Source: Torymus aiolomorphi
Taxonomy: Eukaryota; Arthropoda; Insecta; Hymenoptera; Torymidae
Direction of reading: 5' to 3'
DNA: 64,000 bases
Assembly: GCA_036365515.1 (NCBI GenBank)
Contig: CM070877.1
Span: 55,402,475 to 55,466,474 of the forward strand
Positions within the stretch are counted from its first letter, which is position 1. The number at the start of each line of letters is the position of its first letter. Under the pieces are notes generated by a model. The model worked only from the letters and a program-made list of their open reading frames with translations, was not told the DNA's origin and did not search any database. The translations under genes and the position numbers were made by a program. Below, one piece after another: positions 3,131 to 4,860 of the stretch.

Positions 3131-3474
3131 TGCACACTCGCGTAGTGTGTTGTCTTCGCATTCGTAACGGCTGCCCGGGCTCACTAGTCGTTTGCGAGCG
3201 CTGCTCCCCGCATGCGCACGTTAGCTCAGTCGGAGCTAGCATCTCGCGCGCGCGCGCGTAACCTCTCGCGAGACCGTTATTTTCTTTCATCTGCGCGCGT
3301 CCTCGACAGTTTCTCACGTGTAAATTTTATGTTTCACATGAATAAAAATGTGTAGGCTAGCTCTGTCTGGCTTTTCATTTTATTCAAGAAATAATTGTGT
3401 AGGCTGGTATATCCGGCTACACATTGTTTCCAGTGAATATGCAAAATCATTTTCCGTGTGTGTCGCGTCATGAT

Positions 3475-3593
3475 ATTTTTTACTTCGCATAAAGAATGTT
3501 ATAGGTCAGCTTCCACTGGCTTTGCATTCTTTATGTGAGAAACATCGGTGTAGACCGGCAACACCGACCACGCGATGATGAAGTGAAAAAAAT
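3475..3593 (+). ncRNA. Hairpin module 2 (best closed three-way junction)
   Basis: The outer stem ttttttacttc (3475-3485) pairs with gaagtgaaaaaa (3580-3591). Hairpin A pairs gcataaagaatg with cattctttatgt (12 bp) under GUCAG/CUGGC. Hairpin B has CAUCG (3543) pairing CGAUG (3573) with a different interior from the other copies. Confidence 0.55.
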
Positions 3594-3682
3594 GATGATT
3601 TTCGATCGGAAATCACGTGTGTGCCTTTCGCCGCCCCCCTGCAGCTCATCGTGTTGTTCGCGCAGGTGTACACACGCCCTAG

Positions 3683-3796
3683 ATTTTTACTCGCGTAAAG
3701 AATGATGCATGCTAGCACTCACTGGCTTCTCATTCTTTTCGCGAAAACATTATTGTAGGTCGGTGGCGCTGGCTACATAATGTTTAAGTAAAAATC
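3683..3796 (+). ncRNA. Hairpin module 3
   Basis: Hairpin A: gcgtaaagaatg with cattcttttcgc, upper stem gctag/ctggc, loop cactca. Hairpin B: cattattgtagg with ctacataatg (one bulged U). Outer stem atttttact with agtaaaaat. In hairpin B the fourth pair is U-A here and C-G in module 4 (CAUU/AAUG versus CAUC/GAUG), which is a compensatory change. Confidence 0.55.
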
Positions 3797-3883
3797 CGCG
3801 GTATGTATGCGCACGCCACGTGTTGGGAATCACGCTCTTGTCGCGCATCGTACTATTCGCGCGCGTAATACATCTATCTGTGT

Positions 3884-4079
3884 GTGTCCGTGTGTGTGTG
3901 TCCGTGTGTGGGTGTGTGTGTATGTGTGTGTGTGTGTGTCCGTGTGTGTGTGTGTGTGTGTGTGTGTGTGTGTGTGTGTGTGTCTGTGTGTGTGTGTGTG
4001 TGTGTGTGTGTGTGTGTGTGTGTGTGTGTGTGTGTGTGTGTGTGTGTGTGTGTGTGTGTGTGTGTGTGTGTGTGTGTGT
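3884..4079 (+). repeat. (GT)n microsatellite with interruptions
   Basis: About 195 bp of GT dinucleotides, with early 'ccgtgtgtg' interruptions, lie between hairpin modules 3 and 4. Open frames across it (CVCVCV, HTHTHT) are translation of the repeat only. Confidence 0.95.
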
Positions 4080-4088
4080 CGTATTCTC

Positions 4089-4207
4089 GATTTTTTTTAC
4101 TCGCGAAAAGAATGTTATTGGCTAGCACTTACTGGCTTCTCATTCTTTTCGTGAAAACATCATTGTAGGCTGGCTGCGCCGGCTACACGATGTTTAAGTA
4201 AAAATCG
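4089..4207 (+). ncRNA. Hairpin module 4
   Basis: It follows directly on the (GT)n tract. Hairpin A: gcgaaaagaatg with cattcttttcgt over gctag/ctggc. Hairpin B: catcattgtagg with ctacacgatg over ctggctgcgccgg. Outer stem attttttttact with agtaaaaat. Together with module 3 it gives the clearest covariation. Confidence 0.55.
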
Positions 4208-4585
4208 TGATAACCATGACGTTGCACATGTTTTCCCGCGAATTTTCACTTCGGTCGCCGTAGTGCTCTCATCACCGCTGCACTGTTCAACGTCAGTCAT
4301 CCATGCGTAATCCATACGTGTCTATCGCACCCTAAATTTTTACTTGCGTAAAGATGCTGTAGGTTGGCACTCGCTGGCTTTGCATTTTTCTGAAAAACAT
4401 TATGGGCTGGAATATCCGGCTATATATTGTTGATTTTCTCGTACGTTTACTCTCGCGTCGACTGTTCTCTTCGCGCGCGTAACGGTCGCGCATGATTGTC
4501 ACCACGACACATCGAAAATGTCTCTCTCGCGTGCTGAGACCATGTGTATGCGACTGTTAATTTCATTTTCGCATGCGTGCGCGAT

Positions 4586-4860
4586 TGAAAAAATTCTGCA
4601 AGCTAGCACTCACTGGCTTCGCATTTTTATACAAAACAACGTTGCAGGCTAGAAAATCCGGCTATGTGTTTGAATTAAAAAAATGCTGCAAGTTAGCACT
4701 CACTGGCTTCGCATTTTTAACAACGTTAAAGGCTGGAAAATCCGGCTAGGTATTTGAATTAAAAAATGCTGCAAGCTAGCACTCACTGGCTTCGCATTTT
4801 TATATACAAAACAACGTTGTAGGCTGGAAAATCCGGCTTCGTGTTGTTTGAATTAAGGTA
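4586..4860 (+). ncRNA. Hairpin modules 6-8, close tandem copies
   Basis: Three copies about 85-95 bp apart share aaaaatgctgcaagctagca, ctcactggcttcgcattttt and ggctggaaaatccggcta. Hairpin A is AAAAAUGC/GCAUUUUU with AAGCUAG/CUGGCUU inside. In module 7 the change to AAGUUAG keeps pairing through G-U. No outer stem is evident in these copies. Confidence 0.5.

Follow-up and report, generated by a model that had tools for sequence, protein, structure and literature searches.

An eight-module hairpin array in the left arm of a wasp Polinton probably yields a structured non-coding RNA

Polintons are virus-like transposons known as carriers of protein-coding genes. A stretch of 64,000 nucleotides from the wasp Torymus aiolomorphi (referred to as the window) holds such an element with a tandem array of hairpins near one end, which raises the question whether these hairpins act as folded RNA, act as palindromic DNA, or are functionless copies of one inverted repeat.

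Two Polintons are present in the window, an outer one (1650-39994) that carries the array and a second one nested within it, by which the outer one is split. Polinton/Maverick elements are defined by TIRs starting with AG. The outer element has such TIRs, and its main features, together with the nested element, are as follows.

1650-1821, + strand: left TIR of the outer Polinton, 172 bp, 97% identity to 39994-39824, beginning with AGTAGATAAGC
9286-28235, unstranded: nested second Polinton, inside the outer polymerase gene, with the TSD TATAAA at 9280-9285 and 28236-28241
29407-30003, + strand: fragment of DNA polymerase B of the outer Polinton (PF03175, E 1e-08), the gene being spread over several frames
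37536-38768, + strand: major capsid protein (double jelly roll) of the outer Polinton (PF21738, E 4e-114)
39824-39994, - strand: right TIR of the outer Polinton, partner of the left one and likewise beginning with AGTAGATAAGC

The outer Polinton also encodes an A32-like packaging ATPase (PF04665, E 6.5e-07) and a PLA2-like ORF. As to an integrase, its ORF at 32443-33102 gave only a chromo match (7.5e-04) below the cut-off of that family. A 6-bp TSD was not seen at the outer ends, where the flanks TAACTT and TTTGGT differ. Among the best 120 of 1879 capsid relatives the top matches reach 92%, a protein of Nasonia vitripennis 71% and the hexon of a Megastigmus wasp adintovirus 67%; the named relatives in this set are wasp and sawfly proteins and one wasp adintovirus. 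No hexon relatives were found in IMG/VR. Judged by its TIRs and the capsid, ATPase and polymerase B matches, the outer element appears to be of the Polinton/Maverick (adintovirus) type, and the TIRs and domain matches support the location in a Polinton left arm that the initial annotation had proposed for the array. A repeat of ~185 bp (1468-1650) extends up to the left terminus of the element, and copies of it occur on both strands to the right of the element (40321-43600) among arrays of 12-bp units.

At 28126-31765 the polymerase B region of the outer element is broken up into four or more ORFs that occupy two frames. Pfam gave no polymerase match in the pieces neighbouring 29407-30003, and 30089-31762 had a single, irrelevant match (E 2) in the PDB. 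In the relative P0001 the counterpart of ORF 8363-9304 continues unbroken into residues that are found after 28250 in the window, where the polymerase region starts; thus the inner Polinton splits a gene of the outer one. Neither ORF 8363-9304 nor P0001 has a Pfam match; relatives (P0001) have it as an extension of the protein, fused to the polymerase region on its upstream side, and by eye it contains two similar parts. Genes of its own for polymerase B (PF03175), an rve integrase (1.8e-11) and an A32-like ATPase are found in the inner Polinton. Its long TIRs agree to about 77-78% and harbour internal repeats, and at 24862-25438 it holds two 289-bp copies with 96% matches. The outer copy is degraded: its polymerase is interrupted and spread over several frames, and its Arg-rich gene (see below) is out of frame. 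Any selection on the array therefore predates the decay of this copy.

Eight modules were found on the + strand at 3337-4857, in agreement with the initial annotation. Each consists of a hairpin A followed by a hairpin B, which makes 16 hairpins in total.

3340-3430, + strand: module M1, hairpin A 3340-3386, hairpin B 3388-3430
3488-3580, + strand: module M2, hairpin A 3488-3535, hairpin B 3540-3580, with outer stem
3692-3785, + strand: module M3, hairpin A 3692-3742, hairpin B 3745-3785, with outer stem
4102-4195, + strand: module M4, hairpin A 4102-4152, hairpin B 4155-4195, with outer stem
4346-4432, + strand: module M5, hairpin A 4346-4391, hairpin B 4396-4432
4585-4672, + strand: module M6, hairpin A 4585-4627, hairpin B 4634-4672, weak structure
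4675-4755, + strand: module M7, hairpin A 4675-4716, hairpin B 4717-4755, missed by the two-hairpin model R1 and, in its hairpin B, by the single-hairpin model R2 (see below)
4758-4848, + strand: module M8, hairpin A 4758-4802, hairpin B 4807-4848

M6-M8 are tandem copies lying close together (83-90 bp) with weaker hairpins. An outer stem, originally ascribed to three modules, is present in M2, M3 and M4 and also closes M8 in the minimum-energy fold, and one of 5 bp was seen by eye in M1. Covariation does not extend to it: in the MAFFT alignment described below 71% of its cells are paired, and both sides have changed in 0 of 8 pairs.

Hairpins A and B are related; all 16 align with a mean column identity of 63% and have a tip of approximately GGCURG/CYGGCU in common. 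The upper 3′ arm of hairpin A, CUGGCUU, is identical in all eight modules, and all eight copies are visible in the MAFFT alignment, too. The complete 3′ arm (89% mean identity) reads one variable base, CUGGCUU, two variable bases and CAUUYUU, the latter in 7/8. Mean identity is 72% for the 5′ arm and 69% for the loop of hairpin A, and apart from two U-U cases the changes in the 5′ arm leave a Watson-Crick or G-U pair in place. Hairpin A further has an asymmetric internal loop and hairpin B a recurring bulge; an invariant arm was not found in hairpin B across the eight modules. The consensus sequences put forward earlier were partly too strict: for GCUAG/CUGGC over a CACUCA loop, the stem is exact in five modules and the loop in four, and the second hairpin, GUAGGCUGG/CCGGCUAC, is exact in two of the eight only (M1 and M4).

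The minimum free energies of M1 to M8 on the + strand correspond to z values of -5.0, -5.4, -7.0, -8.6, -3.3, -0.1, -2.8 and -4.8. In seven modules the fold beats all 100 shuffles, while M6 is nearly unstructured, 44 of its 100 shuffles folding as well. Folded singly (37-51 nt), hairpins A form 10-19 bp and hairpins B 7-18 bp, the hairpin B of M7 keeping 7 pairs. Ensemble pairing probabilities of the hairpin A tips are at least 0.92 in 7/8 modules (0.7 in M6); those of the hairpin B tips reach 0.95 in M1, M3, M5, M7 and M8, with at most 0.67 in M2 and at most 0.3 in M6. By fold energy the + strand is better than the - strand in all eight modules, and this difference exceeds that of dinucleotide shuffles in seven (1-8 of 200 shuffles reach it; 43 of 200 in M6), as is expected of the RNA-like structure claimed from the start. 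Fixed windows of 110 nt, with 20 shuffles each and not centred on the modules, gave a mean z of -1.0 over the array (n = 14) compared to -0.46 elsewhere (n = 161) on the + strand, a modest difference; the windows at 1862 and 39350, and at 2962 and 30550 on the - strand, outfold every fixed window of the array.

For the hand alignment (36 pairs) 251 of 278 cells are paired (0.903) and 10 pairs have changed on both sides. A fully paired ancestor decaying along the tree of the copies served as neutral null (1000 runs). Paired cells amount to 0.754 in this null and to 0.765 with observed column rates (observed value reached in 0/1000 of each), and double changes to 3.7 (1/1000) and 5.0 (4/1000), respectively. 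Because the hand alignment was made in a way that favours pairing, the figures from a MAFFT alignment are safer; it was built without structure, and the structure counted on it was taken from M4. Here, 0.903 of the cells are paired, which is reached in 0/1000 runs of both nulls, and 8 double changes compare to 2.8 and 3.6 in the two nulls (7 and 9 of 1000). The compensatory changes in the lower stems, which had been noticed in the initial annotation, are real (AU/GC, UA/AU and CG/UA), and more pairing has been kept than these neutral nulls leave. M1-M4 carry the strongest signal (9 double changes vs. 2.1, 0/1000), M5-M8 alone a weak one (4 vs. 1.7, 76/1000); leaving out M6 and M7 gave 10 vs. 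3.9 (0/1000). For double changes, hairpin A alone reaches 24/1000 and hairpin B alone 104/1000. Column shuffles of the MAFFT alignment were exceeded in paired cells (0/500), covariation score (0/500) and cells changed on both sides (3/500); the number of pairs changed on both sides (7 vs. 5.3 expected, 110/500) and of pair types (249/500) was not above chance. RNAalifold retained 22 pairs, 4 of them changed on both sides, with a covariation term of -1.2.

An excess of G-U over A-C cells (37 vs. 6) was considered as a test of the strand and rejected, as it is not above the null (225-356/1000 by cells, 149-384 by columns), in which the ancestor already holds G-U pairs. The strand argument consequently rests on the comparison of fold energies.

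The surroundings of the array contain the following features.

2129-2755, - strand: divergent ORF, Pro-rich, with acidic C-terminus, no Pfam match
2900-2932, + strand: TATA + TCAGTC promoter-like site for the array, predicted start near 2929
2953-3137, + strand: 44-bp tandem repeat, 4.2 copies, 5′ end of the predicted transcript
4858-5062, + strand: putative intron seen by eye, AAG/GTATGA ... TTTTATTTTCAG/G (slashes mark the splice sites)
5430-6133, + strand: promoter-like site and Arg-rich/Pro-rich gene adjoining the array, whose ORFs 5482 and 5609 do not share a frame here

The TATA/TCAGTC arrangement occurs five times in the window compared to 0.24 expected. The outer element contains four of these matches: one each at the array, ORF 5482 and the ATPase ORF, and one upstream of the capsid ORF. 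The fifth (59536, - strand) lies outside of it. Based on these predicted sites the array has the same promoter type as the genes of the element; the upstream promoter of the initial annotation is thereby found again as a site that points at the array and has counterparts at three ORFs of the element. Within the 44-bp repeat, the 110-nt window from 2962 has a z of -8.6 on the - strand and -1.6 on the + strand. ATTAAA at 4914 is the sole AATAAA/ATTAAA between 4800 and 5430.

No ORF of at least 150 aa covers the array. Its open stretches are seven in number (62-120 codons). A protein frame is unlikely, because the copy spacing is 2 modulo 3 in six of seven intervals, so that no frame is conserved, and because the three longest stretches cross a TG microsatellite. 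In this respect, too, the first description was correct.

The Arg-rich gene downstream of the array starts with its Arg-rich stretch, SRLRRNNRRR(R)QPRP, which recurs in the relative P0145. There, a near-identical Arg-rich stretch, a Pro-rich part and a C-terminal part are in one frame, whereas the copy in the window has them in two frames. Pfam gave no match for 5482-5937, 5609-6133, P0145 or P0146; in the PDB the Arg-rich stretch had no match and P0145 one at E 4.7. The predicted structure of P0145 is unusable (mean pLDDT 55). Arg-rich stretches bind structured RNA in some viruses, but they also pack DNA, and a core protein of that kind is an equally good reading of this gene product. The end of the divergent ORF 2129-2755 has hydrophobic stretches around an acidic run (VELVLIDDDSAEDDEEDDEVTILVV), a region which we take to resemble SUMO-interacting motifs. 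Further downstream, at 7470-8050, a minus-strand gene with an apparent GT...AG intron was seen by eye.

Models of the hairpins were used to search for relatives. The single-hairpin model R2, built from the 16 hairpins, recovers all of them but hairpin B of M7; after these 15, the best match in the 64-kb window scores 17.5 bits (E 0.39), followed by the array's own - strand (E 1.6). R1 lists seven of the eight modules (not M7) and otherwise gave three weak matches of at most 17.1 bits, two of which are the - strand of the array itself, the best outside the array having E 0.91. No orphan hairpins matching R1 or R2 were listed in the inner Polinton. For the whole window Rfam gave no match above the gathering threshold, and for 2800-5100 with E up to 5 a single one, located outside the array and far under the gathering score; a tRNA search gave nothing relevant. 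In IMG/VR, 0 contigs matched the hairpin A pattern with the conserved loop. Matches to the hairpin B pattern (1 contig) and to a looser hairpin A pattern (6 contigs) were rejected as chance, their best R1 value being 14.6 bits (E 0.23). Titles and abstract openings of the literature on Polintons, adintoviruses and Arg-rich motifs describe no such RNA, and the words ′hairpin′ and ′noncoding′ do not occur in the accessible part of PMC6035795. Within this scope the earlier statement that no Polinton RNA of this kind has been described stands.

From these data we conclude that the array probably yields an undescribed structured non-coding RNA. Its hairpins look selected as RNA, as judged from one locus in a decayed element. 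Tentatively, with a probability of roughly 45%, we regard the array as a sponge or scaffold, a multivalent RNA platform to which an RNA-binding protein of the host or of the element would attach. The promoter-like site at 2900-2932 would drive a non-coding RNA of ~2 kb over the array, which would fold into eight pairs with up to 16 hairpins of a single type; folding and covariation support this 16-hairpin structure least in M6 and M7. The common tip, with the invariant 3′ strand in hairpin A, may be the recognition element: a fixed strand within a maintained, many-times repeated helix suggests that a protein or another RNA recognizes it, and with CUGGCUU in 8/8 hairpins A the array has the constant motif in repeated conserved hairpins that characterizes a sponge or scaffold. 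The repeat number would then serve multivalent binding of an RNA-binding protein. By position and composition alone, the Arg-rich protein of the adjoining gene is a candidate partner, a guess made from the neighbourhood. That the element encodes both halves, the 16-hairpin RNA and a small Arg-rich protein under the same promoter type that binds the tips, seems rather unlikely to us; if true, an animal Polinton would have in this RNA-protein system an RNA-based means to regulate its own expression, export or silencing.

The main rival is a microRNA-like small-RNA cluster, in which a 3p small RNA with the seed CUGGCUU would derive from every hairpin A. The stem of a canonical pri-miRNA has ~33-35 bp. 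With stems of 7-19 bp the hairpins are unlikely to be canonical microRNA precursors as far as the predicted folds tell, and hairpin B has no invariant arm. The 3′ arm of hairpin A does have a seed-like profile with a fixed heptamer at the 3p seed position, and the nudivirus non-coding transcript HzNV-1 pag1 gives miRNAs, according to the main text of PMC6292938. Seed sites (AAGCCAG) are few: two on the + strand of the window and, the eight of the array itself aside, two on the - strand, one of each within the outer element. We consider such a cluster, one of the functions suggested in the initial annotation, unlikely on balance and its canonical form not borne out; the packaging signal suggested alongside it was not supported either. 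Rather unlikely, too, is a leader or spliced 5′ exon controlling the Arg-rich gene, perhaps via feedback of its protein on the hairpins. The gene lies directly downstream of the array, and a putative splice donor right after M8 and an acceptor at 5062 were seen by eye, but the gene has a TATA/TCAGTC site of its own at 5430.

Two further explanations dispense with an RNA function, and we hold both to be improbable. A palindromic array could act as DNA, as an enhancer or replication element like the baculovirus hr repeats, and the tandem inverted repeats do lie beside a divergent ORF and a promoter region. The strand bias of folding beyond shuffles, the recurring bulge of hairpin B and the asymmetric internal loop of hairpin A argue against this. 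A functionless array, arisen by neutral tandem duplication of one inverted repeat, would fit the close spacing and weaker hairpins of M6-M8 and the degraded state of the element; the decay of a paired ancestor, however, reaches the observed pairing in 0 or 1 of 1000 in each of nine runs.

If Polintons carry a structured RNA that is under selection, this would add a new class to their genes and offer a handle on Polinton expression or on escape from silencing in wasps. The array is short and self-contained.

Several known systems resemble the array in part. CsrB/RsmZ-type sponge RNAs of bacteria consist of repeated hairpins with a constant motif; the wasp array shares this layout and differs in the motif. 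Baculovirus hr regions are symmetric palindromes without strand preference, whereas the + strand of the wasp array is preferred beyond shuffles in seven of eight modules. HzNV-1 pag1 is likewise a non-coding transcript of an insect dsDNA virus, a nudivirus, but it makes miRNAs, and the words ′hairpin′ and ′repeat′ are absent from its main text as available (PMC6292938). Polinton/Maverick (adintovirus) elements of Hymenoptera represent the type of carrier, for which the titles and abstract openings searched report no structured RNA. The XIST A-repeat has about eight copies in a hairpin layout. Its short structured modules stand in tandem and recruit SPEN (PMC10870365). The A-repeat is mammalian and unrelated in sequence; what the array has in common with it and with similar lncRNA modules is the arrangement as tandem copies of a short structured module.
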